Source: Pseudomonas fluorescens (GTDB lineage Bacteria; Pseudomonadota; Gammaproteobacteria; Pseudomonadales; Pseudomonadaceae). Taken from it: a DNA stretch of 64,000 nucleotides. Each line of letters opens with the position of its first letter. Within the stretch, counting starts at the first letter, position 1. Positions 26,599 through 44,413 of this stretch are shown one piece after another. The stretch covers positions 4,402,001 to 4,466,000 of the forward strand of contig NZ_CP008896.1 in the NCBI RefSeq assembly GCF_000730425.1, written 5' to 3'. The position numbers and the translations under genes were made by a program. The notes beneath the pieces were generated by a model. That model searched no databases and was not told the DNA's origin. It saw nothing but the letters and a program-made list of their open reading frames with translations.

Positions 26599-27048
26599 TC
26601 AGTTCTGCTTCGACGTCCCCGTCTCCTTGAACAACTGCGCCGCCGTGCCCGCTTGCGCCGCGCCGCTTGCGCGCAGCCCGGCCATGATGTCGCGATCGAG
26701 CATGCTCACCCAGCGGTTGTAGTTGCGATGAATCTTGCCGTCCTTGTAGCCCAGTTCCTGGCTGTCGCGGTAGGTGATGGCGTAGTGGGTGCCGGTGTAG
26801 CGGATGTCGATTTCGGCGTAGTAGCGGTTGCGCACGTTGATCTGGGCCTGGATCAGGCGTGGGTCGGCGCGTTGCACGCTCCAGTTGCGCTTGTCCAGGG
26901 CGGTGAGGATGGCCTGTTTCATTTTTTCTTCGCTGACCTGCTCGCTGGCAGCCAGCGCATGCTGGGTGTTGAGCACCGGCTTGCTGGTACAGCCGGCAAC
27001 GGCCAGCAGGGTCAGGGCGATGAGGGTGGCGCGTAGCAACGAAGACAT
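26599..27048 (-). CDS. Lipoprotein of unknown function, last gene of the APE operon
   Basis: 149-residue predicted lipoprotein: MSSLLRATLIALTLLAVAGC gives a signal peptide and lipobox with Cys20. The mature part is about 130 residues with YYAEIDIRYTG and HYAITYRDS, resembling small periplasmic lipoproteins. I do not recognise a defined function. The start is chosen for its GGAGAG site; an earlier in-frame ATG (27066) would spoil the signal peptide. It begins 27 bp after the stop of the downstream ketosynthase of the APE locus on the same strand, so it is probably cotranscribed and may help place the pigment in the outer membrane. Confidence 0.8.
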   Translation of the reverse strand: MSSLLRATLIALTLLAVAGCTSKPVLNTQHALAASEQVSEEKMKQAILTALDKRNWSVQRADPRLIQAQINVRNRYYAEIDIRYTGTHYAITYRDSQELGYKDGKIHRNYNRWVSMLDRDIMAGLRASGAAQAGTAAQLFKETGTSKQN

Positions 27049-27075
27049 TCCGTTCTCTCCAGTCAAATAAAAGGC

Positions 27076-28302
27076 TTACTGCCAGCGGCGAAAGATCAGC
27101 GACGTGTTGACGCCGCCAAAGGCAAAGTTGTTGTTCATCACGTAGTCGTTGTGCATCTGGCGGAACTCGCCGCGCAGGTAGTCCAGTTCGCCGCAGCGCG
27201 GGTCGACTTGATCGAGGTTGAAGGTCGGTACGTACTGGTCGCGGTTCATCATCTCGATGCTGAACCACGACTCCAGGGCCCCGCAGGCACCCAGGGTATG
27301 GCCCAGGAAACTCTTCTGCGAGCTGATGGGCATGCGGCTGCCGAACAGGCTGCTGGTGGCCAGGGTTTCGGCAATGTCGCCTTGTTCGGTGGCGGTGCCG
27401 TGGCCGTTCACGTAGCCGATGGCATCCGGCGTCAGGCCGGCATCTTCCAGGGCCAGTTCCATGGCCCGGCGCATGGTGACCTGCTCGGGACGGGTGGTGT
27501 GCTGGCCGTCAGCGTTGCTGCCAAAGCCGACGATCTCGGCATGGATGTGCGCGCCACGGGCCAGGGCGTGTTCCAGCTCCTCAAGTACCAGCATGCCGCC
27601 GCCTTCGCCGATCACCAGGCCGTCGCGGCCGCTGTCGTAGGGGCGCGGGCTGGTCTGCGGGGCGTCGTTTTTCAGGCTGGTGGCGTAGAGCGCGTCAAAT
27701 ACCATGGCTTCGGTGGGGCACAGTTCTTCGGCTCCGCCGGCGAGCATCAGTGGCAGGCGGCCGAACTTGATCGCTTCATAGGCATAGCCGATGCCCTGGC
27801 TGCCGCTGGTGCATGCGCTGGATGTGGGGATCAGGCGCCCGGTGAGGCCAAAGAAAATGCTGATATTGGCCGCCGTGGTGTGCGGCATCATGCGCACATA
27901 GGAGTTGGCGTTCAGGCCCTCGGCCACCGAGTTGAGCAGCATATTGCCGAAGGCCTTGATCTCGTCGGTACTGCCGGTAGATGAGCCGCAGGCCACCCCC
28001 ATGCGCCCATCCTTGATCGACGCATCGCCCAGCAGGCCGGCGTCCTGTAGCGCCTGTTCCGCGGCCCACACGGCCAGGCGCGAGACCCGGCCCATGCTGC
28101 GCAGTTGCTTGCGGGTCCAGTGGGCCGGCACCACAAAATCGTCGATCGGCCCGGCCAAGCGGGTGTTCAGTTCGCTGAAGCGGTCCCACTCATCCATGCG
28201 CCGGATGCCGCTGCGCTGGGCGCGGAAGCTGGCGACGATGGTGTCCCAATCGCAGCCCAGGGAGGTCATGCCGGCCATGCCGGTGACTACCACACGTTTC
28301 AT
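27076..28302 (-). CDS. apeR: APE beta-ketoacyl-ACP synthase (ApeR-like)
   Basis: Condensing enzyme of the FabF type, 408 residues. The Cys-His-His triad is complete: Cys164 in SSACTSGS, His301 in NGHGTATEQ, and His335 in GHTLGACG. It should carry out Claisen condensations with malonyl-ACP; in APE systems this KS is thought to serve chain initiation. The ATG used overlaps the ketoreductase stop (TGATG), implying coupling; an earlier GTG at 28308 is possible. It is the fourth gene of the KS-DH-KR-KS block typical of APE clusters. Confidence 0.9.
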   Translation of the reverse strand: MKRVVVTGMAGMTSLGCDWDTIVASFRAQRSGIRRMDEWDRFSELNTRLAGPIDDFVVPAHWTRKQLRSMGRVSRLAVWAAEQALQDAGLLGDASIKDGRMGVACGSSTGSTDEIKAFGNMLLNSVAEGLNANSYVRMMPHTTAANISIFFGLTGRLIPTSSACTSGSQGIGYAYEAIKFGRLPLMLAGGAEELCPTEAMVFDALYATSLKNDAPQTSPRPYDSGRDGLVIGEGGGMLVLEELEHALARGAHIHAEIVGFGSNADGQHTTRPEQVTMRRAMELALEDAGLTPDAIGYVNGHGTATEQGDIAETLATSSLFGSRMPISSQKSFLGHTLGACGALESWFSIEMMNRDQYVPTFNLDQVDPRCGELDYLRGEFRQMHNDYVMNNNFAFGGVNTSLIFRRWQ

Positions 28303-29030
28303 CAGCACAGGCCCCCGTTCACGGCCAGCACCTGGCGGGTGATGTAGCCGGCCTCGGCCGACATCAGGAAGTTCACCGCACTGGCGACCTCTTCGGGAGT
28401 GCCCATGCGCTGGGCGGGGATCATCTTCATCAGTTCTTCCACCGGCACGTTCTCGTCGAGCATCGCGGTGTCGATCAGGCCGGGGGCCACGCAGTTGACG
28501 GTGATCTTGCGCTTGCCCAGCTCAATGGCCAGGGCCTTGGCCGCACCGATCAAGCCGGCCTTGGACGCGCTGTAGTTGACCTGGCCACGATTGCCGATCA
28601 GCCCCGAGACCGAGGTAATGCACACAATGCGCCCGGCCGCGCGGCGTCGGATCATCGGCATCATCACTGGGTGCAGCACGTTGTAGAAACCATCGAGATT
28701 GGTGCGCATCACCTCATCCCAGTCATCCTCCGAGAGCGCCGGGAACGCGCCATCGCGGGTCAGCCCGGCGTTCAGCACCACGCCGTAATAGGCGCCGTGG
28801 GCTTGCACGTCGGCCTCAAGGATTTGCTTGCAGGTGGCACGGTCTGCCACATCGAACTGCAGCACCCGGGCCTTGCGTCCCAGGGCCTGGATTTCAATCT
28901 GTACGGCATCCGCTTCGGCACGGCCATTGCGGCAATGCAGCACGATGTCATGGCCGGCCTGGGCCAGGCGCAAGGCAATAGCGCGGCCGATACCCCGGCT
29001 GGAGCCGGTGACCAGTACGGATTCAGTCAT
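28302..29030 (-). CDS. apeQ: APE 3-ketoacyl-ACP reductase (ApeQ-like, FabG family)
   Basis: Short-chain dehydrogenase of 242 residues that reduces the beta-keto group after each condensation using NADPH. It has the cofactor motif TGSSRGIGRA (about residues 8-17), NAG at about 87-89, the catalytic Ser in ITSVSG, Tyr and Lys in YSASKAG, and PGLIDT. Its start lies eight bases inside the end of the dehydratase gene. Length is normal for FabG. Confidence 0.92.
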   Translation of the reverse strand: MTESVLVTGSSRGIGRAIALRLAQAGHDIVLHCRNGRAEADAVQIEIQALGRKARVLQFDVADRATCKQILEADVQAHGAYYGVVLNAGLTRDGAFPALSEDDWDEVMRTNLDGFYNVLHPVMMPMIRRRAAGRIVCITSVSGLIGNRGQVNYSASKAGLIGAAKALAIELGKRKITVNCVAPGLIDTAMLDENVPVEELMKMIPAQRMGTPEEVASAVNFLMSAEAGYITRQVLAVNGGLC

Positions 29031-29487
29031 GACGCGTGTCCTTCGATTCAGCTAAATAGTTGGCCGCCTGGGGCGGTCGAAATACGTTCAGGCGCGCGCT
29101 GGCCTGGATCCCGTTGCCGGTCAGGTGGCATTCGAACACACCCATGCCGTTGTCGTCTTCCAGGGAGCGCAGGCCGTGGATGGTCAGCTCGGTGCCGACG
29201 GGAAAGTGCTCGACGTTGCACTCAAACTTACGGGTGCCCAGCAGGAACCCCAACGCCACCGCTTCGCCGTTCTGGCGTGCACGGCAGCCCGCATAGGCAG
29301 CGACGCTTTGCGCCATCAGCTCGACGCCGACCCAGGCCGGCAGGCTGCCGTCAGGGCGGTTGAACAGGCCGCCGGGCCTGACGGTGACGCGAGTGCGGAT
29401 CTGCTCTTGATCGAACGCCAGCACCTGGTCGATCAGGATCATGTCCCCGGCGTGGGGCAGCAGTTCGGCGAGTGGCCAATCGATCAT
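29023..29487 (-). CDS. apeP: APE 3-hydroxyacyl-ACP dehydratase (ApeP-like, hotdog fold)
   Basis: 154-residue single-hotdog protein. LLPHAGDMILID near the N-terminus and PAWVGVELMAQSVAAYAG in the centre match the ApeP/FabA-like dehydratases of APE clusters, with His12 and Glu56-region residues as likely catalytic pair. It should remove water to form the new double bond of the polyene. Known APE systems use a dehydratase heterodimer, and the likely partner is the C-terminal domain of the fused ligase gene at 39840. Overlaps with both neighbours indicate coupled translation. Confidence 0.88.
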   Translation of the reverse strand: MIDWPLAELLPHAGDMILIDQVLAFDQEQIRTRVTVRPGGLFNRPDGSLPAWVGVELMAQSVAAYAGCRARQNGEAVALGFLLGTRKFECNVEHFPVGTELTIHGLRSLEDDNGMGVFECHLTGNGIQASARLNVFRPPQAANYLAESKDTRHD

Positions 29488-30650
29488 GGGGCGTCTCCGA
29501 TAATCAGGCTGACGTTATTGCCGCCGAAGGCAAACGAATTGCTCATCAGGTAGCGTTTTTCCAGGGGATCGCCGACCTTCGCCCAGTGCAGGGCAGGCAG
29601 CACCGGGTCGGCTTGACCGTCCCAGATATGCGGCGCCAGCGTGCCCTCGCTCAGGCTCAGCCAGCAGAACGCGGCTTCCAGCGCCCCGGCGGCGCCAAGG
29701 GTATGGCCGGTCAGCGGCTTGGTCGAGGAGCAGGCTACGCCCGCGGGAAACAGGGTGGCTACGGCCAGGCTTTCCATGGCGTCGTTATGCGGGGTCGCGG
29801 TGCCGTGCAGGTTCAGGTAGCCGATCTGCGCCGGGGCCAACTTTGCACTGGCCAGGGCCTTGCTCATTGCCTGCAGCGCACCTTTGCCGGTGGGCTCCGG
29901 CGCGGAGATATGGTGCGCATCGCAACTGGCGCCGCTGCCCAGCAAGGCGATGGGCGCCGGGCTCCTGCTCATCAGGAACAGCACCGCCGCTTCACCAATA
30001 TTGATGCCATTGCGGTTCACCGAAAACGGGTTGCAGCGTTCGGCAGACACCGCTTCCAGGGAGGTAAAGCCATTGAGGGTCAACTTGCACAGGCTATCGA
30101 CCCCGCCACACAGCACCGCATCGCACAGGCCCAGGTCCAGCAGGCGGCGTGCGCTCATCATTGCGCGGGCGCTGGAGGTGCAGGCGGTGGAAATCACATA
30201 GGCCGGGCCGCTCAGTTGCAGCCAGTCGGCGAGGAAGTTGGCCGGGGCGCCGAGTTCCTGTTGCCGGTAGTCGTAATCCTCGGGGAACTGCCCTTCGCGC
30301 AGGTAGTGGGCGATGCCGCGGCTGGCTTCATCGATGCCCGAGGTGCTGGTGCCCAGCACCACCGCGATGCGTGACGCGCCAAAGGTCTGGATCGCTTGGC
30401 GGATCGGGCCTTCTATCTGTAACGCAGCCTCCAGCAGCAACTGGTTATTGCGACTGTTCTGTTGTGCCAGGTGCGGCGGCAGCGGTGCCAGTTCACCGAG
30501 CACGCTGCCCACCGGCACTCTGCGCTCAGGCACCCAGCCGCGCTCGGCGCGCATGCCGGAGCAATCCCCGGCAAACAGGTTGCGCCGTACTTCGTCCTGG
30601 CCACGGCCCAGGGCGCAGATGACCCCCAGGGCATTGAGGTAGGCAGTCAT
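29484..30650 (-). CDS. apeO: APE beta-ketoacyl-ACP synthase (ApeO-like)
   Basis: Ketosynthase of 388 residues with an intact triad: Cys157 in STACTSS, His282 in LHGTATPHND, and His316 in GHTLGAAG. In characterised APE systems ApeO pairs with the truncated KS-like ApeC as a KS/chain-length-factor pair for elongation; the ApeC-like partner is the first gene of this operon (43348-44067). Its ATG overlaps the DUF3261 lipoprotein stop by four bases, and it overlaps the dehydratase gene downstream by four bases. Confidence 0.9.
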   Translation of the reverse strand: MTAYLNALGVICALGRGQDEVRRNLFAGDCSGMRAERGWVPERRVPVGSVLGELAPLPPHLAQQNSRNNQLLLEAALQIEGPIRQAIQTFGASRIAVVLGTSTSGIDEASRGIAHYLREGQFPEDYDYRQQELGAPANFLADWLQLSGPAYVISTACTSSARAMMSARRLLDLGLCDAVLCGGVDSLCKLTLNGFTSLEAVSAERCNPFSVNRNGINIGEAAVLFLMSRSPAPIALLGSGASCDAHHISAPEPTGKGALQAMSKALASAKLAPAQIGYLNLHGTATPHNDAMESLAVATLFPAGVACSSTKPLTGHTLGAAGALEAAFCWLSLSEGTLAPHIWDGQADPVLPALHWAKVGDPLEKRYLMSNSFAFGGNNVSLIIGDAP

Positions 30651-31129
30651 GGGCTGCTCTCAAGCGCGCTGACGCGATAGTTCAGGTGCTGGCCGGGCAT
30701 GCCCACGCTAAAGCTCAACGGCGCGCGATAGAGCACTTGCCAATGTGGCTTGAGCACCCGCACACCATCGTATTCGCGGGCTTGGGGATAGTTGCCGCGC
30801 ACCTCGGCGGCAGGCGTCAGGGCAAACAGCAGCGCGGCAAACAATTCACGGGCCTGGGGATTGGGCGGCAGCAGGCCATCCGCCTGCCAGGTGCCGGCCA
30901 CCAGCTTTTGTCGGGCCTGGGGAATGCCCAGTGGATCCATCAGCGACCAGCGAATGGCCCGACCTTCGCGCTGGATCACCAGCAACCAGTCCTGGCGCTG
31001 GCCATCCTGCTCGCGCTCGATATGCAATTGCAGGGGCAAGGCCAGGCTTGGTGTATGCACCGGCAGCGGTGGCTGGCTGGCGCAGGCAGCGAGCAGCAGC
31101 AGGCTGGCGATCAGCAACGCGCGGATCAT
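30647..31129 (-). CDS. apeN: DUF3261-type lipoprotein (ApeN-like)
   Basis: 160-residue lipoprotein with signal MIRALLIASLLLLAAC and lipobox LAAC (Cys16). The mature part has QDWLLVIQREGRAIRW and SLMDPLGIPQARQKL, typical of the DUF3261 proteins that occur in APE clusters and are of unknown mechanism. A role in LolA/MMPL-linked transport of the pigment lipid to the outer membrane is inferred from context only. It overlaps both neighbours by four bases. Confidence 0.8.
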   Translation of the reverse strand: MIRALLIASLLLLAACASQPPLPVHTPSLALPLQLHIEREQDGQRQDWLLVIQREGRAIRWSLMDPLGIPQARQKLVAGTWQADGLLPPNPQARELFAALLFALTPAAEVRGNYPQAREYDGVRVLKPHWQVLYRAPLSFSVGMPGQHLNYRVSALESSP

Positions 31130-31875
31130 GCTGCCGGGCCTGTAAGTGGCTTGCGCGCGACCACATTCACCAAGGTCTCTTCACGCTCGCCAAACGGCTT
31201 GGGCTGGCGCAGGCCCCAGCGCTCCAGCAGGCCGAAGTCAACCGAGCGGCTCCACCACAGGTAGGGGTAGGACACATTCTGCGGGCCGAACTCGAAACCC
31301 TGGTCGCGGACCATTTCCAGGTACTCGGCGGCGCTCTTTTGCACATGCATCGGGTGACGGAACAGCCAGCGAATCACCCAGGTATCGATATAGGCTTCGG
31401 TGGACTCGGCAAACAGCAGGTAGCCACCCGGCTTGAGCACCCGATAGAACTCGGTGAGTGCCCGTTGCTGCTCCACCAGGTGGTGGAAAGTCTGGTGACA
31501 GAACAGGATGTCGACGCTCTCGTCGGCCACGTCGAGGGTTGCACAATCGCTGCCGATCAGCTCGATATCAATGCCCTGGCGCGCGGCTTCGGCACGGCTC
31601 AGGTCAAGGCTGTGCGGGTCGGCGTCAAGGCCGATCAGGCGTGCGGGGGCGAACACCTGTTGCAGATAGCGAAACGACTTGCCCTGGCCGCAGCCGGCAT
31701 CCAGCAGTACTGGCGCCTGGGGCAACGGCTCGCTGAACAGGCCACGCAGGTCGTTGATCGCCACGCGCAGCACATGATGTTGCCAGGTATGGCTGCGCAG
31801 GAACCAGAAGCCGAACTTGGTCTCTTCGACGTAATTTTTGCTCAAGTATTCTTTTTGCACAGACGGACTGCTCAT
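31126..31875 (-). CDS. apeB: Class I SAM-dependent methyltransferase
   Basis: 249-residue methyltransferase. SAM motif I is LLDAGCGQGKSF (about residues 56-67), acidic motif II is LIGLDAD, and FRVLKPGGYLLFAES-like motifs follow. It probably O- or C-methylates the aryl head group, as aryl polyenes commonly carry methoxy or methyl groups; which atom is modified is not visible. It overlaps the flavin enzyme gene by four bases (ATGA) and the lipoprotein gene by four. In E. coli the methyltransferase gene lies at the other end of the cluster, so its place here is different. Confidence 0.83.
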   Translation of the reverse strand: MSSPSVQKEYLSKNYVEETKFGFWFLRSHTWQHHVLRVAINDLRGLFSEPLPQAPVLLDAGCGQGKSFRYLQQVFAPARLIGLDADPHSLDLSRAEAARQGIDIELIGSDCATLDVADESVDILFCHQTFHHLVEQQRALTEFYRVLKPGGYLLFAESTEAYIDTWVIRWLFRHPMHVQKSAAEYLEMVRDQGFEFGPQNVSYPYLWWSRSVDFGLLERWGLRQPKPFGEREETLVNVVARKPLTGPAA

Positions 31876-33119
31876 ACGTTATCCCCGGCACAGATTTGCG
31901 AGAGCATCCGCAAGCGGCGCTTGGGTTCGCTGACAAAGGGGTTGCGCTCGTCCCAGGCATAACCGGCGAGGATCGAGCTGATCATGCGGCGGATTTGCGG
32001 CGAGCTGCCAGGGTGGTAGATCACATCCTGGAACGTGCCGGCGTACCAGCCTTCGACATAGCAGCGGAAGGTGTCGACCCCGCGCTTGAGCGGCTCGGCG
32101 AACTCGGTCTGCCAGTCCACGCTTTCGCCCTTGAGCTGGCGGTGCAAGAGGCCGGCGGCCATGCTGGCCGAACGCATGGCGATGGTCACACCAGAGGAGA
32201 ATACCGGGTCGAGGAACTCTGCCGCGTTGCCCAGCAGCGCAAAGCCTGGGCCATGCAAGGTGGTGACGTTGGCCGAGTAGCCGCCGATGGCCCGTGCCGG
32301 GGTATCCCAGACCGCGTTCGCCAGGACGTTGGACAGGCTCGGGGTTTGCTCGATAAAACCGCGCAGGCAGGCATCGAGATCCCCATCGCAACCGGCAAAA
32401 TGTTCCTTGGCCGCGACCACGCCCACCGAACAGCGCCCGTTGCTGAACGGGATGGTCCAGAACCAGATATCGCGCTGGGTCGGGTGGGTGGTAATGAGGA
32501 TTTTGCTGCGGTCGAAGCCCGGGTGTTCGATGCGGTCTTCGACATGGGTGAACACCGCCTGGCGCACCGGGAAGTTCGACGGCGCTTCAAGGTTCAGCAG
32601 GCGCGGCAACACGCGACCGTAGCCACTGGCGTCGAGGACGAAACCGGCCTTGATGTGGTATTCGCGGCCATTCTCGCGGCGCACGTGCAGGTAGCGGTGG
32701 CCTGCGGCGAAATCCACGCCGACCAGGGTCTGGCCGTAACGGATCTCCACGCCTTGCAACGCGGCCTGATCGGCCAGCAACTTGTCGAAATCGGCGCGCT
32801 GGACCTGGAAGGTCGTGGGCTTGCCATCGCTGAAGGTGTCGCCGAAATCGAAGGCACTGTAGCGCTCGCCCCAGGCAAATGCGGCACCGGTTTTCAGCTG
32901 GAAGCCGGCGGCGTTGACCGCCTCAAGCATGCCGGCCTCTTCGATAAAGTCGATGCAGTGGGACAGCAGGCTCTCGCCGATGGAAAAACGCGGGAAGTGC
33001 TCGCGTTCGATGATCAACACATCATGCCCGTTACGCTTGAGCAACGCGGCCGCAATGGCGCCGGATGGACCGGCACCGATCACCACGACCTGGCGACGTT
33101 CCATTTCAACTGTGGGCAC
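31872..33119 (-). CDS. FAD-dependent enzyme with flavin halogenase signatures
   Basis: 415-residue flavoprotein. GAGPSGA at about residues 15-21 binds FAD; GES at 48-50 and LGNAAEFLDPVFSSG match the halogenase/monooxygenase family. It has the halogenase-type WxWxIP motif (Trp219, Trp221, Pro224) and a lysine in LKTGAAFAW (Lys76), the position of the catalytic lysine in phenolic and tryptophan halogenases. It may halogenate, or otherwise oxidise, the aryl head group; xanthomonadins are brominated by comparison. The start is GTG (MPTVEMERRQ) because a perfect AAGGAG lies five bases before it; ATG at 33104 is the alternative. It overlaps the methyltransferase. Confidence 0.82.
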   Translation of the reverse strand: MPTVEMERRQVVVIGAGPSGAIAAALLKRNGHDVLIIEREHFPRFSIGESLLSHCIDFIEEAGMLEAVNAAGFQLKTGAAFAWGERYSAFDFGDTFSDGKPTTFQVQRADFDKLLADQAALQGVEIRYGQTLVGVDFAAGHRYLHVRRENGREYHIKAGFVLDASGYGRVLPRLLNLEAPSNFPVRQAVFTHVEDRIEHPGFDRSKILITTHPTQRDIWFWTIPFSNGRCSVGVVAAKEHFAGCDGDLDACLRGFIEQTPSLSNVLANAVWDTPARAIGGYSANVTTLHGPGFALLGNAAEFLDPVFSSGVTIAMRSASMAAGLLHRQLKGESVDWQTEFAEPLKRGVDTFRCYVEGWYAGTFQDVIYHPGSSPQIRRMISSILAGYAWDERNPFVSEPKRRLRMLSQICAGDNV

Positions 33120-33176
33120 TGTGGCTCCTTGCCGGGTTGGCGATTATCACATTCAACTCAAAACAATCAGTGGGCG

Positions 33177-36162: not shown

Positions 36163-36584
36163 TTCAAGGCCCTTTCGACAGCGCTGGTGAAGGCTGTGGG
36201 CGAGGCCAGTTGCATCTCGCGGCTGGCGATTTCGACGGCCACTTGCACGGTGCTGGCGCGGGTCAGGCGTTCGCCGCTGGCAAGGTCGGTGATCAGGTAG
36301 TTGACCTTCAAGCGGTTCTCCCACTCCACCAGGCTGGCGCGCACATTGAGGGTCTGGCCAAAGGTGGCGCCACGCACGTAGCGCAGTTGCAGGTCGATCA
36401 CCGGCCACGCATAGCCGGATTCGAGCATCGCCGTGTAGTTGTGGCCGAGTTTGTCCAGCAGCGCGCAGCGGGCGATTTCCAGGTATTTCACGTAGTGGCC
36501 GTGCCAGACCACGTTCATCGTGTCGATGTCGAAGAAGGGCACGAGGATTTCAGTGTCGCAATGCAACACACCGGGGCTACGCAT
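36156..36584 (-). CDS. apeK: Acyl-CoA/ACP thioesterase, 4HBT family (ApeK-like)
   Basis: 142-residue hotdog thioesterase. The YbgC/4-hydroxybenzoyl-CoA thioesterase signature FDIDTMNVVWHGHYVKYLE is at about residues 18-36, with the catalytic Asp in the FDID part. It may release stalled or finished chains from the ACP. It overlaps the ammonia-lyase gene by eight bases and the LolA-like gene by seven. Confidence 0.87.
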   Translation of the reverse strand: MRSPGVLHCDTEILVPFFDIDTMNVVWHGHYVKYLEIARCALLDKLGHNYTAMLESGYAWPVIDLQLRYVRGATFGQTLNVRASLVEWENRLKVNYLITDLASGERLTRASTVQVAVEIASREMQLASPTAFTSAVERALKC

Positions 36585-38121
36585 GCAGCCTCCAGTGTTG
36601 CGCGGCGATGCGTTGCAGGCACAGGCGCAGTTCGCCTTCCAGGGCGCGGTCTTCGATCACTGGCGCAAAGTCCTTGGCCAGCTCGATGTGCATCGCGGCC
36701 AGGGCCGGTGGCAGCGGCCGTGCATCCTTGGCCTGGGCGCGCAGCCACACGCCCTGGTTGGCGGCGAGCAAGGTGGCGGCGGCGACCTGTTCGGTCAGCT
36801 CCAGCACGCGGATAGCATCGCGGGCGGCGATGGTACCCATGCTGACCTTGTCCTGGTTGTGGCACTCGGTGGAGCGCGAAAACACGCTGGCCGGCATGGT
36901 GTTTTTCAAGGCTTCGGCAGTCCAGGCGCTGGTGCCGATCTGCACGGCCTTGAAGCCGTGGTTGATCATCGCGCGATCCGCCGGGGCGCCCGACAGGTTG
37001 CTTGGCAAACCGTGGTTGTAGCGCTCATCGACCAGCAGCGCCAGTTGCCGGTCGAGCAGGTCGGCGACGTTGGCCACCAGGTTCTTCAGGCTGTCCATGG
37101 CGAAGGCGATATGCCCGCCGTAGAAGTGCCCGCCGTGCAGTACACGTTCGGCCTCGGCATCGATGATCGGGTTGTCGTTGGCGCTGTTGAGCTCGACTTC
37201 GATAAACGAACGCAGCCAGTTCAGGCTGTCGGCCAGCACACCGAGGACGTGGGGCGCGCAGCGTAGCGAGTAGCGATCCTGCAGGCGGTGCAAGGGTGCG
37301 GTCGGGGCGTCGATGGCCAGGTCCTTGCGCAGCCAGGCTGCAACCTGCATCTGCCCGGGGTGCGGCTTGGCGGCGAACAGGCGCTCGTCAAAGTGTTCCG
37401 GGTTACCTTGCAGCGCCACCACGTTCAACGCGCTAATGCGCGTGGCCAGTTGCAGCAGGTAGTCGGCGCGGGCGAAGGCCAGGCAGGCCAGGCCGGTCAT
37501 CACCGCGGTGCCGTTCATCAAGGCCAGGGCTTCCTTGGGCCGCAGCACCAGCGGGGTCCAGCCCAGTTCGCGGTGTACATCGCCAGCCTGGCGGCGCTCG
37601 CCCCGAAACAGCACTTCACGCTCGCCGGACAAGGTGGCGGCCACGTACGACAACGGCGTCAGATCGCCGCTGGCGCCCACCGAGCCTTCTTCCGGGATCA
37701 GCGGCAGAATGTCGTGTTCAAGGAATGCCTGCAGGCGTTCCAACAGTTCAACCCGCACCCCGGACACGCCATGGCACAGCGACTGCAAGCGCGCCGCCAG
37801 CACCGCACGGGTGGCCTGGGCGTCGAGCAACTTGCCCAGGCCACAGCCGTGAAAGGTGTACAGGTGACGCGGCAATGCCTCGACATGCTGCAACGGCACT
37901 GCCACCACGCACGAGTCGCCGTAGCCGGTGGTCACGCCGTAGATCACGCCTTCCTTGTCCAGCAGCGAATCGAGGAACTGCGCGCCCTTGGCGATGCGCT
38001 GGCGATACCCGGCATCGTCTTGCAGGCGGGTGGGCGCCTGGCGGTTGGCCAGGGCCAGCACGTCTTCGATGCGCAATGGGAGTTCGCCGAAGGTTACCGG
38101 CTCAAGCAGATGCGTCGTCAT
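36577..38121 (-). CDS. Aromatic amino acid ammonia-lyase (HAL/TAL/PAL family)
   Basis: 514-residue MIO-type lyase, normal length. The Ala150-Ser151-Gly152 triad (GSVGASGDLTPLSY) forms the methylidene-imidazolone cofactor, and Tyr61 in YGVTTGYGDS is the catalytic tyrosine. The selectivity pair is Phe90-His91 (LYTFHGCGLG), not the Ser-His of histidine ammonia-lyases, so histidine is unlikely to be the substrate. Tyrosine or phenylalanine would give coumarate or cinnamate, a starter for the fused AMP-ligase. The start is MTTHLLEP, overlapping the acyltransferase gene by 20 bases. The homology label histidine ammonia-lyase would be misleading here. Confidence 0.88.
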   Translation of the reverse strand: MTTHLLEPVTFGELPLRIEDVLALANRQAPTRLQDDAGYRQRIAKGAQFLDSLLDKEGVIYGVTTGYGDSCVVAVPLQHVEALPRHLYTFHGCGLGKLLDAQATRAVLAARLQSLCHGVSGVRVELLERLQAFLEHDILPLIPEEGSVGASGDLTPLSYVAATLSGEREVLFRGERRQAGDVHRELGWTPLVLRPKEALALMNGTAVMTGLACLAFARADYLLQLATRISALNVVALQGNPEHFDERLFAAKPHPGQMQVAAWLRKDLAIDAPTAPLHRLQDRYSLRCAPHVLGVLADSLNWLRSFIEVELNSANDNPIIDAEAERVLHGGHFYGGHIAFAMDSLKNLVANVADLLDRQLALLVDERYNHGLPSNLSGAPADRAMINHGFKAVQIGTSAWTAEALKNTMPASVFSRSTECHNQDKVSMGTIAARDAIRVLELTEQVAAATLLAANQGVWLRAQAKDARPLPPALAAMHIELAKDFAPVIEDRALEGELRLCLQRIAAQHWRLHA

Positions 38122-39040
38122 CGGTCTTCCAGAAAGGGTAAAAGTTGAACCATTGTTGGGGCGCCTGCAGGCAGAACTGGCCCAGGCGCTCGGCGTAGCG
38201 GGCGGCCCAGTGGGCAATCACCTGCTGGCGGTCGCTGCGTTTCCATTCGATCAGTTGGGCGAAGGGCTCGATGATCAGCCGGTAGCGCCCCTGGTGCTTG
38301 AGGCACATCAGCAGGTTGACCGGGCACTTGAGCAGGCCGGCCAGCAGCCATGGACCCTGGGGGAAGGCGGCGCTGTGGCCGAGAAAATCCACGCGCACCG
38401 TGCGCCCGCCATGCAGGGGGATGCGGTCGCCGGCAATCGCCAGCCATTCGCCGTCGTCCAGGCGCTGGCTGAGCAGCAGCATCACCGCCGGGTCCAGCTC
38501 GCTGACCTGGATCAGTCGCAGGTTGCTCGCCCCGGCTTCGCCCAGCAGGCGGTTGAACTGTTCGGCGTGCTTGGTGTGCACCAGCACATTCATGGTGACT
38601 TGCTCGCCCAGCTCGGCGAGGGCGCGGCACACTTCCAGGTTGCCCAGGTGCGCGCCCACCAGCATCTGCCCGCGCTCGCTGCGCAGTTGCCCACGCAGTT
38701 GGGCCGGGTCGATGATCTCGATCTGCTCCAGGCGCAGCTTGCCGTTCCACACGTCGAGCTTGTCCAGCAAGGCGTCGGCGAAGGCCATGAACTGGCTGAA
38801 GACCCGGCGGTGGCTGGGGCGAAGCTCGCCACGCCCGCTCCACTCGGCCAGGCGCTGCTGGTATTGCCAGATACTTTGGCGCGCGGCACGGCCAAACAGG
38901 AAAAAGTACAGGACGATGCCATACAGCAGTGGACTCAGCACCCGGCGCCCGAGGACTTTGGCGGCAAACGCGGTGAGTTTCATCAGCCAGAAACTGCCGC
39001 GCTCCTGGCGGTCGGCCCAGTGCCGGGTGGTCTCGCTCAT
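38102..39040 (-). CDS. LpxL/HtrB-like lipid acyltransferase (ApeJ C-terminal counterpart)
   Basis: 312-residue protein of the LpxL/lauroyl acyltransferase family. A hydrophobic segment (about residues 35-55) precedes GAHLGNLEVCRAL, where His of HxxxE-like HLGNLE is the expected catalytic motif, then AGDRIPLHGG and the C-terminal CLKHQGRYRL and QWFNFYPFW. It may acylate the sugar or glycerol carrier that anchors the polyene. Its ATG overlaps the glycosyltransferase stop (ATGA). In E. coli these two activities are one fused protein, ApeJ, as I recall; here they are separate genes. Confidence 0.83.
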   Translation of the reverse strand: MSETTRHWADRQERGSFWLMKLTAFAAKVLGRRVLSPLLYGIVLYFFLFGRAARQSIWQYQQRLAEWSGRGELRPSHRRVFSQFMAFADALLDKLDVWNGKLRLEQIEIIDPAQLRGQLRSERGQMLVGAHLGNLEVCRALAELGEQVTMNVLVHTKHAEQFNRLLGEAGASNLRLIQVSELDPAVMLLLSQRLDDGEWLAIAGDRIPLHGGRTVRVDFLGHSAAFPQGPWLLAGLLKCPVNLLMCLKHQGRYRLIIEPFAQLIEWKRSDRQQVIAHWAARYAERLGQFCLQAPQQWFNFYPFWKTDDDASA

Positions 39041-39771
39041 GCCTGCCACCGTCGCCAGAGGATCAGCGGCGCACGCAGCAACATGCCGAAAAACAGCCGG
39101 GTGTGCATGGATGAAATCAGCACATTGTCGTGGACCAGGCGAAAGTGCGACAGGCCATCGGCCGGGTAGTGCACCTTGGTCGGCAGCCAGCGCATCGGCT
39201 GGTTGCGCCACGACAGGCGCACGAGGATGTCGGAGTCGAAATCCATGCGCTTGCCGATCCGCGCCGAGTCCATCAAAGCCAGCACCGGTGCCAGGGGGTA
39301 GAGGCGAAAGCCACACATCGAATCGCGGATCTGCAGCGACAGGCTGTTGATCCATACCCAGACGTGGGTCAGGTAGCGCGCATAGAGGCGGCCCTTGGGC
39401 ACGCTGTCATCGTATTCGGGGTAGCCGCAGATCACGGCGTCGGGATGGGCGCGCGAGGCGTCGAGAAACAGCGCGACTTCGCGCAGGTCGTGCTGGCCAT
39501 CGGCGTCCACTTGCAGGGCATGGGTGAAACCCAGGCGCGCGGCTTCGCGAAAACCTGCCATGACCGCTGCGCCCTTGCCTTGGTTGATGGGCAGGCTTAG
39601 CAGCGACACATTGTCCAGGCTGGCCAGTTGCGCCAGCACGGCGGCACAGGCCGGGCTGCTGCCATCGTCTACCAGCAGGCAGGGCAGGCCGCGCTCCAGC
39701 AGGCTACGCACCACAGTGGGCACGGCGGCTTCGTGGTTGTAGACCGGGATCAGGGCGCAGGGGTTATGCAT
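39037..39771 (-). CDS. Family 2 glycosyltransferase (ApeJ N-terminal counterpart)
   Basis: 244-residue GT-A fold enzyme of dolichyl-phosphate-mannose-synthase-like type. ALIPVYNHEAAV starts the fold, VDDGSS binds nucleotide, VDADGQHD is the metal-binding DxD region, and the C-terminal part ends in a possible membrane-associated helix (MLLRAPLILWRRW). It would add a sugar to the pigment or its lipid carrier. The start is chosen at MHNPCALIP; upstream in-frame codons run through a half REP. It overlaps the acyltransferase by four bases. Confidence 0.86.
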   Translation of the reverse strand: MHNPCALIPVYNHEAAVPTVVRSLLERGLPCLLVDDGSSPACAAVLAQLASLDNVSLLSLPINQGKGAAVMAGFREAARLGFTHALQVDADGQHDLREVALFLDASRAHPDAVICGYPEYDDSVPKGRLYARYLTHVWVWINSLSLQIRDSMCGFRLYPLAPVLALMDSARIGKRMDFDSDILVRLSWRNQPMRWLPTKVHYPADGLSHFRLVHDNVLISSMHTRLFFGMLLRAPLILWRRWQA

Positions 39772-39798
39772 GGTCGGGCTTCCCTGTGAGACCGAGCG

Positions 39799-39827
39799 GC
39801 CTGCATCGCAGGCAAGCCAGCTCCCAC
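39799..39827. repeat. Half REP element
   Basis: A GCCTGC/GCAGGC hairpin followed by AAGCCAGCTCCCAC, one arm of a REP element, in the 68-bp gap between the fused ligase and glycosyltransferase genes. No inverted partner is visible. Confidence 0.6.
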
Positions 39828-39839
39828 CCTTCACCCAAC

Positions 39840-41510
39840 TTATGCATGGGAGTTCTCCAGCAGAATCCGCCCACTGGAACACGCCGCACTGTCATTGCGA
39901 TAAGCGAAATACAACTTGCCCCGCTCACGATCAAAACGCAGGTGCAGTTCGATTTCGTCCCCAGGGCGTATCAGTTGCTGGAACTTGAGCACTTCCATGC
40001 CGGCAAAGGCCGGCGGCAGGTCGAGCAGTTGCTGGCCCAGATTGAACGCCCATTCCACCTGCACCACCCCCGGCAACACCGGCGTGTGGGGGAAGTGGCC
40101 GCTGAAATAGGCCAGGTCCGGCGCAATGCTCAGTTGCAGGGTCCATTCGCCATTCGCCTCGACTTGCGCCAGCACGTGTGGCGCCTTGGGGCGTGGCGCC
40201 AGCAGCAGGGCTTCGATTGCGGCCTGGGGCAGTTTGCCCTGGGGGTTGAGCGGCAACTGCCGCAACAAGCGCCAGCGGCGGGGCAGGGCCAGGGCTTCGC
40301 AGTGTTGGCTCAGGTGTTGGCGCAGGGTTTGGGTGACGCTGCGTCGGCCTTGATTGCGCAAGGCGTGCAGGCCATCGCTGCTGAGCACCACCAGGGCCCC
40401 GAGGGAGGCGCGGTTTTCCTGGATCACCCCCAGACGTGCCTCGGCGACCCAGGCATGCTCCGCCAGGGCCTGTTCGAGCATCGGCAGGGAAATGCGCTTT
40501 TCTTCCAGCTTGACGATCCGATCCAGACGCCCGAGCAGTTCAAAGCGGCCGTCGGCGTGGATCCGGGCGGCGTCGGCAGTCTGCTCGACATGCCCGGCTG
40601 GCAGGTACGGCGAAGCAATGCGCAAGGCGCCGTCGGCATCCTGAGTCAGGCGTACACCGGCAAACGGCTGCCATGGCGTGTGGCCCTGGCGCCAGGCAAT
40701 GCCGCCGGTTTCCGAGCTGCCGAGGATCTCGGTCGGCCACTGTTGCAGGCGTCGGTGCAGGCTGTCGGCGGCGTCGGCGGGCAGCGCGCCACCGGAAGAG
40801 AACACGCGCTTGACCGTACTCAACGCCAGCCAGTCGAGGTTGTCGCCCATGCGTTTGAGCAGGGCCGGGCTGGTCACCCAGGCGAAATGCGGGTGCTGGC
40901 GGCTGACGCGCTGCAAGTCTTCGGGAAACGGCAGTTGCTGGCGCACAAAACCGCGCCCGGCGCACAGCGGCCACAACACGCGAAACAGCAGGCCATAGAT
41001 ATGCTGGGTGGCGACGCTGCCGATGATGCACGCCTGGCCCAGGTCGGCGCCCCACAGGGCTTCCAGGGCCTGCACCTCGTTGGCCAGCTGGCGCAGGGTT
41101 TTGTCGATGCGCTTGGGCTCGCCGCTGGAGCCGGAGGTACACAGGCTCAGTTGGCAGGTGTCCAGGTCGAGGGCTGCGGCAGCGAGCGGCGGTTGGTAGA
41201 GCGTATCCAGGTCGCCCGTTTCGGTCAGCCAGGCATCAACCGCAGTGGCCCAGCGTTGACGGGTCTGGGGTTGCAGGTCGGCGGGCAGCAACACACTGAC
41301 CCCGGCACGCCAGGCACCGAGCAGGGCAATCGCCAGCTCGCCGGCGTCGTTCAGGTGCACGGCCAGGCGCCGGATGCCACGGGCTTGCAGCCCGGCCGCG
41401 AGGCTCAGGGCCCGTTCGCACAGCTGTGCGTGGTTCATCACAGGTTCAGTGGTGACCGAACGCAGCTCCACAGGCTCAAGCAACAGATGCTCAAGATTGA
41501 CCCAATTCAT
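39840..41510 (-). CDS. Fused acyl-ACP synthetase and hotdog dehydratase (ApeH-ApeI)
   Basis: 556 residues with two domains. The N-terminal about 430 residues are an AMP-forming ligase: A3 [11 protein letters not shown]5 SSETGG, A8 [14 protein letters not shown], and A10 LNPQGKLP with the catalytic Lys. The last about 120 residues are a FabZ-like dehydratase with [17 protein letters not shown], where the His of GHFP is catalytic. The ligase would load the aryl starter onto an ACP, and the dehydratase would pair with the ApeP-like enzyme. In E. coli these are separate apeH and apeI genes. There is no stop or frame change between domains. The ATG overlaps the membrane protein stop (ATGA). Confidence 0.9.
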
Positions 41511-42052
41511 ACGCGGCCTCGAACCCTTTGTCGTATCAGCCATTCCACGGCAAACAACAACCCCATCAGCCCATAGGCGATCAGGCCGTTGTACAACGTC
41601 CACCAGCTCAGTGGTGCCCACAGGGTGAGCGCGGCGGCGAGCAGGCCGTTACACAAGAAAAACACACTCCATACCACCGTGACCTGGCGTGTGTACGCAA
41701 TGGCCTGTTCAGGCAAGTGCGGGTCGCTCAGGCGCGCCAGGCGCTCGACCATCGGCGGGCCGTATTTCAGGCTCAGGCCGAACAGCGCCAGCATCAGGAG
41801 GCTGACCAGGCTCGGGTACCAGCGCAGCCATTGCGGGTTGTCGAACCAGGCCAGTAGCAGGCAAAACACAATCGCAACCGTGGCCATCCAGGCGTTGCCG
41901 GGGCGCCGTGCGCCGGTCAGCGCGCGCAGCAGCCAGAGGCTGGCCAGCAGCAGGCCGAATTGCCACGGTGCGAAGTGCTCCGTGCCGTAATACACCGCAA
42001 ACGGATACAGCAGCCCTACCAGCAACAGGCCAAGGCCGATCAGCCGGCTCAT
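41507..42052 (-). CDS. apeG: COG4648-type membrane protein (ApeG-like)
   Basis: 181-residue integral membrane protein with about five hydrophobic segments (roughly residues 3-20, 30-45, 58-72, 83-97, 125-175). Similar proteins are found in APE and xanthomonadin clusters and have no known biochemical role. FLCNGLLAAALT and the charged loop ending ERLARLSDPHLP are typical. It overlaps both the second ACP and the fused ligase gene by four bases, so it is translationally coupled to them. Confidence 0.8.
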   Translation of the reverse strand: MSRLIGLGLLLVGLLYPFAVYYGTEHFAPWQFGLLLASLWLLRALTGARRPGNAWMATVAIVFCLLLAWFDNPQWLRWYPSLVSLLMLALFGLSLKYGPPMVERLARLSDPHLPEQAIAYTRQVTVVWSVFFLCNGLLAAALTLWAPLSWWTLYNGLIAYGLMGLLFAVEWLIRQRVRGRV

Positions 42053-42303
42053 GCGGCCGGTTGGACCAGGCGGTAGACCGCCTCGACCACGTCATTGACC
42101 GTACGCACGGCCTTGAACTCTTCGGCGGCGATTTTCTTGCCGGTCTGACGCTTGATATGGTCGATCAGGTCCACCGCATCAATGCTGTCGATTTCCAGGT
42201 CCTGGTACAGGTTGGCGTCGAGGGTGACCCGCGCCGGCTCCAGTTCAAACAGTTCCACCAGGGCGTCGCGCAGGGTGTTGAAGATATCGTCACGAGTTTG
42301 CAT
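42049..42303 (-). CDS. apeF: Acyl carrier protein (ApeF-like)
   Basis: 84-residue ACP. The phosphopantetheine attachment serine lies in the DSI motif of LEIDSIDAVDL (about Ser39). Four helices and an acidic surface are expected. Together with the neighbouring ACP it would hold the growing aryl polyene chain. It overlaps the membrane protein gene by four bases and follows the other ACP after nine. Confidence 0.93.
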   Translation of the reverse strand: MQTRDDIFNTLRDALVELFELEPARVTLDANLYQDLEIDSIDAVDLIDHIKRQTGKKIAAEEFKAVRTVNDVVEAVYRLVQPAA

Positions 42304-42312
42304 GGTCGGGTC

Positions 42313-42582
42313 TCAAGCTGCCTGTCTGGCCGTGACGAATGCCGCGAGGCTGGCCACGTTGATAAAGTGATTGCGGGTGTCCTTGGCGTCGGCATCGATC
42401 TTGATACCGTACTTTTTCTGGATCGCCAGGCCCAACTCCAGGGCGTCTACCGAATCCAGGCCCAGGCCTTCGCCGAACAGGGTTTGCTCGCTGCCGATGT
42501 CGCAGGCGTCGATGTCTTCCAGGCCCAGGGCCTCGATGATCAGGGTTTTGATGTCGTGCTCAAGGCTGTTTGGGTTGCTCAT
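42313..42582 (-). CDS. apeE: Acyl carrier protein (ApeE-like)
   Basis: 89-residue ACP. The attachment serine lies in GLDSVDALELG (about Ser45). It is a phosphopantetheine-binding family member with an N-terminal SNPNSLEHDIKTLI helix. It begins inside the end of the acyltransferase gene (overlap 23 bases). Having two ACPs with different surroundings (DSV and DSI) suggests separate jobs, such as starter loading and elongation, but this is inference. Confidence 0.92.
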   Translation of the reverse strand: MSNPNSLEHDIKTLIIEALGLEDIDACDIGSEQTLFGEGLGLDSVDALELGLAIQKKYGIKIDADAKDTRNHFINVASLAAFVTARQAA

Positions 42583-43372
42583 CTTCGGCGAGCTCCTTAA
42601 TGAAATAGTGATGCAGGTAATCGTTGAGCTTGCGTGAGGCCTGGGGTGCGGGCCCTTGTGAGGCAAACACCTGTGGGTCTATATCGGCACCCACCTGCAA
42701 ACTGAAGTGAAAGCGGCGGTGGGGGATGCGATACCAGGGCTCGGCCTTGGTCAGCGTGGTCGGGCTGACCTTGAGCACCACGGGGGTAACGAGTGTCGCA
42801 CCGCGCAGGGCGATGGCGGCGGCCCCTCGATGGAAGGCCGGCGCCGCGCCTGGCACGGTGCGGGTGCCTTCGGGAAAGATAATCAGGGTCTGGCCGCCCT
42901 GCAGGGCGCCGGCGGCGGCATCGAGCATGTCGATGCTGCCGTCATTGCTGATATAGCCGGCATCGCTCACCGGGCCACGGGTGAAGGGGTTCTGCCACAG
43001 GCTTTGCTTGACCACGCAATTGGCCTGGGGCACCAGGCCGATCAGCACCACCACGTCTATCAGCGATGGGTGGTTGGCGATGATCATCTGCCCGGGGCGC
43101 CCGAGTTTTTCGGCACCTTCGATGCTGTAGGTCAGGATGCCGGCGCGGTACATCAGGTTAATAAAGAACCAGAACAACCGCCCAACGGTCAGGCGCGCAC
43201 GGCGCTGGTGCTGACGCCCATCCCCGGGCAGGCAACTGAGCAGCGGAAACACCAGCAGGCGCAGGCACAAGCCGCCCAGGCCGAACAGCACGAAGCTGGC
43301 CGCCGTGGCGAACAGGCGCCAGTAGTAGGCGTCCCTGGGCTTGTCGGTCAGTGTTTGCGTTGCCAGTTCCAT
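42560..43372 (-). CDS. apeD: PlsC-like acyltransferase (ApeD-like)
   Basis: 270-residue membrane-bound acyltransferase of the 1-acyl-glycerol-3-phosphate type. The NHPSLIDVVVL (NHxxxxD) and FPEGTRTVPG boxes are both present, with a hydrophobic N-terminal segment (about residues 18-50). It may transfer the finished polyene acyl chain to a lipid acceptor. The ATG used overlaps the upstream gene by 25 bases and follows GGAAGA; an earlier start would extend through unrelated sequence. Confidence 0.86.
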   Translation of the reverse strand: MELATQTLTDKPRDAYYWRLFATAASFVLFGLGGLCLRLLVFPLLSCLPGDGRQHQRRARLTVGRLFWFFINLMYRAGILTYSIEGAEKLGRPGQMIIANHPSLIDVVVLIGLVPQANCVVKQSLWQNPFTRGPVSDAGYISNDGSIDMLDAAAGALQGGQTLIIFPEGTRTVPGAAPAFHRGAAAIALRGATLVTPVVLKVSPTTLTKAEPWYRIPHRRFHFSLQVGADIDPQVFASQGPAPQASRKLNDYLHHYFIKELAEDEQPKQP

Positions 43373-44067
43373 ACTCGGTTCTTCCAGGCATGTTGGCAGG
43401 CACCCTGCTCGGTGAGCAGGGTACGCAGCAGGTTCAGGGCGTGGGGCCACTGTGTGTCGGTGGGTTGGACAGCCGCGGTATGCAGCGCCAGTTGCCATTC
43501 GTCGCCTGGGGTCAGCAGCAGGCCCAGGGCATAGGGAAACGGCACGTCGTCGATCCAGCGCGCGTAGGCGTGGGGAGGCTGTTCTTCGGCAATCACCAGC
43601 AGTACGGCCGGCGCGCCTTCGTTGAGCAGGGCCGCAGCCTCCAGCATGCCATGCTCCAGGCCGTCGCCCGCTGCCGCCAGGGCCGTCATTTCGCTGGTTT
43701 CATTGCGCAGGATCGACCACAGGCCAATCACCGCGTTGTGTACCGAGAGGCTGAACTGGGTCGGCGACAGGGGCTGGTCCGTGGCCAGGTCGCTGAGAAT
43801 AGCCAGGGTGCGCGGGGTTTCTCCATGGCGCGAGACAAACACCAGCGGCAGGTCCTGCAAGCCTTCGGCCAGGGGCCAGCCGACGCTGAAGGCCATCCGG
43901 GCCAGGCGGCTCAGGCGCCGGCGCTGCATGGCCGGCAGGAACGACACATCGGGTGCGGCATCGCTTTGGGCCAGCAACACCGGGGCCTGGCACCAGTCGC
44001 GCCAGGCATCCACGCTGTCGAGCCCAGGGGCCCAGGCGCGCCATTGGGCGATGTTGAAGTTGATCAC
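43348..44067 (-). CDS. apeC: Truncated ketosynthase-like protein (ApeC-like chain-length factor)
   Basis: First gene of the APE operon. The 239-residue protein matches only the N-terminal half of beta-ketoacyl synthases (FSLSVHNAVIGLWSI, LAAAGDGLEHGMLEA) and shows no Cys-His-His triad. In APE systems ApeC is a factor that pairs with the ketosynthase ApeO. The start used is GTG giving MINFNIAQWRAWAPG, the usual N-terminus of this family as I recall it, with GGGA about ten bases upstream; an ATG at 44130 would add 21 residues without a clear ribosome binding site. Confidence 0.82.
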   Translation of the reverse strand: MINFNIAQWRAWAPGLDSVDAWRDWCQAPVLLAQSDAAPDVSFLPAMQRRRLSRLARMAFSVGWPLAEGLQDLPLVFVSRHGETPRTLAILSDLATDQPLSPTQFSLSVHNAVIGLWSILRNETSEMTALAAAGDGLEHGMLEAAALLNEGAPAVLLVIAEEQPPHAYARWIDDVPFPYALGLLLTPGDEWQLALHTAAVQPTDTQWPHALNLLRTLLTEQGACQHAWKNRVWNWQRKH

Positions 44068-44413
44068 TGAGAAGATTTCCCGCCCCTGCGGGCTTCCTTG
44101 TGCTGCAAATTGCCCATGAAACCGGGACATGGCGCGATGGCCGAGTGGCGCGCATTATCCCGGTGCGGTGGGGTTCTAGCAAACTTTGGTAAAGAATTGT
44201 TCACGAGATATTACAAAATCGGCGAAAAGAATCATCGATTGTCCGCCAATGCCTACAGGGGCCGGTGTCAGGCAACTCTTTATTGGTTGGCGTAATACGA
44301 GATAGTTAGGCGGGATCGGTCTTCAGGTGCTGCAGTACAAGCTTGATCAAGGTAGCGAGCGGGCGCTTTTGCCCTCTACACTCGGGCATTCATTGATACA
44401 CGGAGGTTTTTCC
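44068..44413. other. 346-bp divergent promoter region of the APE operon and parA-like gene
   Basis: No coding gene is convincing here. The centre (about 44180-44240) is A/T-rich, unlike its surroundings, as expected of promoters for both directions. A possible plus-strand pair is TTGGTA 44186-44191 and TATTAC 44209-44214 with 17 bp between; the complement of the latter gives TAATAT for the APE direction, but no good -35 box goes with it. GGAGG just before 44414 is the ribosome binding site of the ParA-like gene. Confidence 0.5.

Follow-up and report, generated by a model that had tools for sequence, protein, structure and literature searches.

An aryl polyene operon of Pseudomonas fluorescens with a predicted tyrosine ammonia-lyase and a halogenase-like flavoprotein

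Does an aryl polyene (APE) gene cluster that carries enzymes missing from the cluster of Escherichia coli specify a new type of pigment? This question is raised by a locus in Pseudomonas fluorescens, which lies within a stretch of 64,000 nucleotides, hereafter the window, that corresponds to positions 4402001-4466000 in a genome assembled as one contig (6,064,456 bases). A sequence-only reading of the window had recognized an APE-type core joined by an aromatic ammonia-lyase, a flavin enzyme with halogenase motifs, a methyltransferase and separate glycosyl- and acyltransferases, and had suggested that these additions point to a product that may differ from known types. We conclude that the locus is largely ordinary, as the usual Pseudomonas form of a pigment cluster that is already known, because the extra enzymes are standard in most sampled Pseudomonas and in some related bacteria. 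At a probability of roughly 0.8, we interpret the locus as a standard APE operon with a layout like that of Aliivibrio fischeri (APE Vf), which would produce a yellow membrane pigment started from tyrosine.

The operon and its conservation in Pseudomonas

The locus is a run of 20 genes on the minus strand of the window, all in one direction, which begins exactly at the start codon of the ApeC gene (44067) and stops exactly where a small lipoprotein gene ends (26599). Pfam matches assign a gene in the window to every core Ape function, and comparison with the E. coli locus revealed the components that characterize an APE cluster: three types of ketosynthase, a ketoreductase, two dehydratases, two acyl carrier proteins (ACPs), a ligase, a thioesterase and LolA/MMPL-type export. 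Counterparts in the E. coli locus, at 29-60% identity and in nearly the same order, exist for 16 of the 20; the four genes without a match encode the lyase, the flavoprotein, the methyltransferase and ApeN. The core gene order and the additional enzymes reported from sequence alone were thus borne out: all of the genes named there are backed by Pfam and BLAST, some of them weakly, with the MMPL and DUF3261 matches falling below the Pfam cut-off. The matches of the lyase to PF00221 (Table 1) and of the flavoprotein to Trp_halogenase (PF04820; 88 bits) are far beyond chance.

We next considered how widely this arrangement is conserved. A search of named genomes with the lyase confirmed at least 574 relatives, and the best 80 of these at least 574 were kept, all of which are from Pseudomonas and 89-98% identical; because the loci were chosen by lyase similarity, the set is biased to close relatives. 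Those cluster genes that were found are collinear and on a single strand in 80/80 loci. Apart from the flavoprotein and methyltransferase genes, the 16 genes from ApeC to ApeQ were all present in 76 of the 80, and the remaining four loci (L018, L028, L040 and L049) are broken off by contig ends. Where the DNA reaches far enough, ApeR was found in 26/26 loci and the 3' lipoprotein in five of six; the sixth, from P. agarici (L078), showed no match despite having room for one. Three of the loci (L007, L008 and L009) are identical 21.6-kb cluster stretches from separate contigs of a single P. costantinii assembly, probably from assembly duplication, so that the 80 loci amount to 78 distinct ones.

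We also evaluated an even draw of 119 genomes from the genus, using PF22817 to identify ApeP, E <=1e-150 for the lyase and E <=1e-100 for the flavoprotein. ApeP was present in 93 of the 119 genomes, and 91 of those 93 encode the lyase and 86 the flavoprotein. Among the 26 genomes that are free of ApeP, none showed either the lyase or the flavoprotein at the cut-offs used. As parts of the ordinary APE operon of Pseudomonas, the additional enzymes give no grounds for treating the locus as a pigment type of its own. When the ketosynthase-dehydratase-ketoreductase-ketosynthase genes served as a DNA query, 5371 of 5426 genomes matched, a count that was not used because many of the matches may be ordinary fatty acid genes.

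The genes of the run are tightly packed: by their coordinates, neighboring genes mostly overlap by a few bases, and the widest gap is 68 bp. Likelier start codons were adopted for the lyase, glycosyltransferase and acyltransferase genes, which gave the coordinates listed in Table 1; the starts of ApeC, ApeD, ApeE and ApeL listed there have the same basis. The 20 genes probably form one transcript. A promoter scan found one promoter-like candidate site at 44182-44154 on the minus strand, where 0.2 were expected. A divergent gene for a ParA-type ATPase (44327-45184) flanks the operon; next to it come thioredoxin-2-like and SelO genes, which lie on the other strand.

Table 1. Genes of the aryl polyene operon, in order of transcription, with positions in the window
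Product	Position	Strand	Basis
ApeC, beta-ketoacyl synthase-like chain-length factor, GTG start	43348..44067	-	Ketoacyl-synt_2, 262 bits; position as in E. coli
ApeD, lysophospholipid-type acyltransferase	42560..43372	-	PF01553
ApeE, acyl carrier protein	42313..42582	-	PF00550
ApeF, acyl carrier protein	42049..42303	-	PF00550
ApeG, small membrane protein	41507..42052	-	Weak IspA/IspZ-like match; 47% over 69% to E. coli locus
ApeH-ApeI fusion, aryl acid ligase and dehydratase	39840..41510	-	AMP-binding and ApeI-like domains in one frame
Family 2 glycosyltransferase, equivalent to first half of E. coli ApeJ	39037..39771	-	PF00535; 55% to E. coli locus
LpxL-like acyltransferase, equivalent to second half of E. 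coli ApeJ	38102..39040	-	PF03279; 35% to E. coli locus
Aromatic amino acid ammonia-lyase, 514 amino acids, predicted tyrosine ammonia-lyase	36577..38121	-	PF00221, 530 bits; ASG intact; ATG at 38121
ApeK, thioesterase	36156..36584	-	4HBT_2
ApeL, LolA-like carrier	35479..36129	-	PF03548/PF19574
ApeM, MMPL/RND-type exporter	33177..35495	-	PF03176 weak, below cut-off; 29% over 97% to E. coli locus
Flavoprotein of the FADH2-dependent halogenase kind	31872..33119	-	PF04820; 3nix nearest solved; GxGxxG, Lys76, WxWxIP, FxDPxFSSG
Class I S-adenosylmethionine methyltransferase	31126..31875	-	Methyltransf_11
ApeN, DUF3261-like lipoprotein	30647..31129	-	PF11659 below cut-off; no E. coli match by BLAST; placed as in E. 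coli cluster
ApeO, elongating ketosynthase	29484..30650	-	Ketoacyl-synt domains; 49% to E. coli locus
ApeP, dehydratase	29023..29487	-	PF22817, ApeP-like
ApeQ, ketoreductase	28302..29030	-	adh_short/KR; 60% to E. coli locus
ApeR, priming ketosynthase	27076..28308	-	Ketoacyl-synt domains; 55% to E. coli locus
Small lipoprotein, ApeA-like, 3' end	26599..27066	-	Lipobox in translation; 39% over 72% to opening small gene of E. coli cluster; no Pfam match

The flavoprotein and methyltransferase modules

Variation among the Pseudomonas loci sits between the exporter and ApeN. To count modules, we used the 77 loci that span this interval, leaving out L018, L028 and L040 because their contigs end before ApeN. 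The flavoprotein was present in 76 of the 77 and the methyltransferase in 69. An additional membrane-protein gene of approximately 386 amino acids, which has no Pfam match and is absent from the window, occurs between the exporter and the flavoprotein in 52 of the 77 (e.g., L011:15114-16286), and the pattern of the window, i.e., flavoprotein and methyltransferase without the additional gene, occurs in 23. The flavoprotein is absent from Pseudomonas sp. ATCC PTA-122608, where the exporter and methyltransferase matches lie 24 bp apart (L006:15020-15044). In P. agarici, the methyltransferase is absent save for a 15-residue match (80%) to its end, located before ApeN (L078:16264-16308), which suggests that the gene was lost rather than never present, because a remnant of its end persists.

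We also examined 185 genomes of the class, 19 of which have an ApeP match (16 exceeding the family cut-off). A lyase of at least 59% identity, which we refer to as close, is found in nine of the 185, the window's own included, and in all nine it lies on the same contig as ApeP and within approximately 8 kb of it. Five of these nine genomes encode a flavoprotein of at least 48% identity in the same stretch, G040 encodes a 34% relative approximately 8 kb from the lyase, and G094, G104 and G063 encode the lyase and ApeP with no flavoprotein match at 1e-40. Conversely, G086 and G049 carry the flavoprotein beside ApeP with no lyase match at 1e-40; together with the preceding three genomes, they rule out the lyase and flavoprotein as obligate partners. 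A further genome, G149, has the flavoprotein beside ApeP and only a 33% lyase-family match approximately 14 kb away. Matches to the methyltransferase are fewer, in 3 of the 185 genomes at 1e-30. The flavoprotein and methyltransferase each occur alone, which rules out one obligate pair, and we conclude that they are separately dispensable modules.

What reaction the flavoprotein might catalyze was assessed from its motifs and relatives. A lysine plays a catalytic role in flavin-dependent halogenases, and the window protein has this lysine together with the other halogenase motifs (Table 1). Its nearest solved relative is 3nix (362 bits), which is named only as a flavoprotein or dehydrogenase and which we take to be the oxidoreductase ChR43 of Cytophaga hutchinsonii. 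The next relatives are the halogenases 8zop, 3e1t and CmlS at 144-160 bits, and the 13 solved sequences that follow 3nix are all named halogenases except for one named only ChlB4. All 101 aligned flavoproteins retain the lysine, WxWxIP and FxDPxFSSG (78/78 from Pseudomonas, 12/12 closer relatives outside the genus and 11/11 distant relatives), in a set that was gathered by similarity to the window protein or as lyase neighbors. In one study, GxGxxG and WxWxIP are named as halogenase motifs and ChR43 is described as structurally halogenase-like (PMC4859513). By sequence, the flavoprotein is a halogenase-type enzyme, with a putative halogenating activity.

An alternative function for the flavoprotein is that of a hydroxylase or an oxidase or dehydrogenase of the chain, which together with the methyltransferase could leave the head group hydroxylated or methoxylated. 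The name of its closest solved relative is consistent with such a role, as are the 4-bp overlap of the flavoprotein and methyltransferase genes (31872-31875) and their adjoining position outside the core cluster of Caballeronia, whereas the conserved halogenase motifs, the names of the next 13 relatives and the existence of loci with either gene alone argue against it. We regard this alternative as a serious contender that falls just short of an even chance. The Caballeronia genes, observed in C. insecticola (L107:23901-26008), lie together on opposite strands approximately 2 kb outside the core cluster.

According to the published descriptions, the rings of flexirubins may carry chlorine or methyl groups (PMC3992019), xanthomonadins bear 0-2 bromines and derive from clusters with a halogenase gene (PMC3691225), and the arcuflavin cluster also lists a halogenase gene (PMC3949708). 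Our literature search for 'aryl polyene' paired with 'flavin-dependent halogenase' returned nothing, and in the portions of the literature that were searched, no head-group structure of any Pseudomonas APE was found. We tentatively propose, at somewhat less than even odds, that most Pseudomonas carry a working halogenase dependent on reduced flavin adenine dinucleotide (FADH2) in the APE operon and make chlorinated or brominated, methylated, coumarate-derived aryl polyene lipids. Species would then differ in the ring decoration of such lipids, through gain and loss of the flavoprotein and methyltransferase genes as independent modules. The main value of the present analysis is to correct an apparent novelty, with the chemistry of the ring and head group as the testable remainder, for which the species that naturally do not encode the flavoprotein (L006) or the methyltransferase (L078) offer ready comparisons.

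The ammonia-lyase and the proposed pathway

In an alignment, the motif of the lyase for the 4-methylideneimidazol-5-one cofactor is intact (GASGDL, with ASG kept). Selectivity site 1 is Phe-His in the window lyase, Ser-His in the two other PF00221 proteins of the genome and Phe-Leu in 2nyn, a cyanobacterial phenylalanine ammonia-lyase (PAL); site 2 is NQDKVSMG in the lyase and NQEDHVSM in one of the other PF00221 proteins. Phe-His is conserved in the window and the 80 Pseudomonas loci (81/81 rows), in two Pseudoalteromonas and in Acinetobacter, and is replaced by Tyr-His in Caballeronia. The alignment columns for both sites and the substrate meaning of their residues are our assumption, apart from the pattern of FlxA from Chitinophaga pinensis. 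FlxA is described as an enzyme that is histidine ammonia-lyase (HAL)-like at site 1 and like tyrosine ammonia-lyase (TAL) or PAL at site 2, acts approximately 1000 times better on tyrosine than on phenylalanine and gives no product with histidine (PMC3992019). The window lyase, with a HAL-like His at site 1 and a TAL/PAL-like form at site 2, is similarly mixed; because FlxA proved to be a TAL, tyrosine is the best guess and the likely substrate of the window lyase.

Two adjacent PF00221 proteins, presumably for histidine breakdown, are encoded elsewhere in the genome, upstream of the window (G000:C1:4355423-4358342), one with an intact ASG and the other without ASG in the alignment. A histidine-degradation role for the window lyase itself is less likely given these two proteins, its position in the middle of the operon and its tie to ApeP across the genus.

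Several observations weigh against a tyrosine-started APE operon. The lyase is missing from 2 and the flavoprotein from 7 of the 93 ApeP-positive Pseudomonas genomes, a close lyase is absent from 10 of the 19 ApeP-positive genomes of the class, and neither enzyme is essential to APE clusters, as E. coli has neither. The lyase also scores under every NCBIfam cut-off (408 of 1000 bits for the BagA/FevW TAL, 377 of 539 for HutH and 311 of 700 for FlxA), which leaves its substrate a prediction rather than a family assignment. In addition, a terminator scan gave no terminator-like site downstream of the last gene of the operon. It is the absence of a close lyase from 10 of 19 genomes that holds our estimate to the level stated at the outset.

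The lyase-free genomes among those with ApeP, in Pseudomonas and in the class, along with the HAL-like His at site 1, could also be explained if the cluster starts from 4-hydroxybenzoate, with the lyase serving another purpose or making cinnamate or urocanate. The E. coli pathway, whose cluster is lyase-free, is predicted to start from 4-hydroxybenzoate (PMC8253772). We consider this start unlikely in P. fluorescens, because the lyase gene lies mid-operon and follows ApeP through the genus sample, and because a second PF00221 protein with an intact ASG exists elsewhere in the genome. Furthermore, the flexirubin cluster of C. pinensis is described as starting its polyene with just such a pair of enzymes, the lyase FlxA and the 4-coumarate ligase FlxY (PMC3992019). 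The best NCBIfam match of the ApeH-ApeI fusion is a 4-coumarate ligase model (TIGR02372), far under its cut-off (93 of 335 bits).

For the tyrosine-started operon that we favor, the following pathway can be proposed. The lyase would convert L-tyrosine to p-coumarate, which ApeH would activate and load onto an ACP. ApeR would prime the synthesis, and ApeO/ApeC with ApeQ, ApeI and ApeP would lengthen the chain by malonyl units, and ApeK would release the resulting conjugated aryl polyene acid. Its phenol ring may be altered by the flavoprotein and methyltransferase. Attachment of the product to a lipid would fall to ApeD, the glycosyltransferase and the LpxL-like acyltransferase, and its transport to the outer membrane to ApeL, ApeM, ApeN and the ApeA-like lipoprotein; in that membrane, it may serve as an antioxidant pigment. 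The core steps are published for Xenorhabdus and E. coli, and protection from oxidative stress for E. coli, which are relatives of the system whose gene content, order, conservation and catalytic motifs are established here.

Comparison with known pigment clusters

The APE Ec cluster of E. coli (c1186-c1204) has no lyase or flavin enzyme annotated among its 18 genes in the one strain compared. In this respect, the additions do set the locus apart from the E. coli type, as first suggested; their combination, in contrast, is not special and represents the usual layout of the genus. E. coli ApeJ is a fused glycosyltransferase/acyltransferase, which corresponds to two separate genes in the window, and the separate ApeH and ApeI of E. 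coli correspond to one fused gene. The E. coli methyltransferase ApeB, encoded near the cluster front, differs from the methyltransferase of the window, which has no significant BLASTP match to it and was rejected as an ApeB. The window therefore departs from the APE Ec subtype in each of its features, namely the missing lyase, the fused transferases and ApeB up front. No lyase match turned up when 20,395 E. coli records were searched at the DNA level, a result that DNA divergence alone could account for.

Assignment to a xanthomonadin- or flexirubin-type cluster instead of the APE Vf type is highly improbable: a halogenase-like gene is described for the xanthomonadin and arcuflavin clusters (PMC3691225, PMC3949708) and an ammonia-lyase is shared with flexirubin clusters, but the 20 genes include no identified XanB2-type chorismatase domain or dialkylresorcinol genes darA/darB (the rest of the genome was not searched for either), and the literature places the clusters of Pseudomonas with APE Vf. 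Xanthomonadin synthesis is described as involving a chorismate-utilizing enzyme of the XanB2 type (PMC3949708), and the term ammonia does not appear in the main text of the xanthomonadin and arcuflavin papers (PMC3691225, PMC3949708). Flexirubin is a dialkylresorcinol ester, and the window lyase falls below the cut-off of the FlxA model, as noted above.

Some other bacteria carry lyase-bearing APE clusters. In Pseudoalteromonas sp. THAF3, Pseudoalteromonas sp. CF6-2 and Acinetobacter baumannii VB31459, the annotated order is the same, including the glycosyltransferase, acyltransferase, lyase, thioesterase, LolA, exporter and NAD(P)/FAD oxidoreductase, with identities to the window of 60-62% for the lyase and 52-53% for the flavoprotein. 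The stretches examined in these strains showed no match to the window methyltransferase, and ApeH and ApeI are separate in the Pseudoalteromonas clusters, unlike the fusion in the window. In the record CP035931.1 (L108), which spans 1.02 Mb and is named a plasmid, genes for histidine--tRNA ligase, der and bamB adjoin the APE cluster; because of these genes, the record may be a chromosome piece filed as a plasmid.

Published surveys place Pseudomonas clusters near that of A. fischeri. They treat an ammonia lyase as characteristic of APE Vf and describe the APE clusters of Pseudomonas as similar to that cluster (PMC8719888, PMC5851621, PMC8704066). A pan-genome study of Pseudomonas defines the APE clusters of the genus by reference to A. 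fischeri. A survey of 37 Pseudomonas species reported APE clusters in 23 genomes, some of them APE Vf-like (PMC8704066), a P. donghuensis study described 40% of the APE cluster genes as V. fischeri-like, and marine Pseudomonadaceae are described with several E. coli- and V. fischeri-like layouts and some hybrids with resorcinol genes (PMC10165715). In APE Vf of A. fischeri ES114 (MIBiG BGC0000837), which we compared through published descriptions, ammonia lyase and acyl/glycosyltransferase genes stand beside the synthase genes. The window shares the defining feature of this subtype, i.e., an ammonia lyase and acyl/glycosyltransferases inside an APE cluster (PMC8719888, PMC5851621). The E. coli and V. 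fischeri clusters are reported to comprise all required genes, based on heterologous expression (PMC8253772). The sequence-only reading had held that close identity in gene content to a solved cluster would speak against a distinct product, and such a likeness is largely what the literature provides: by these descriptions, the operon of P. fluorescens resembles the heterologously expressed APE Vf cluster.

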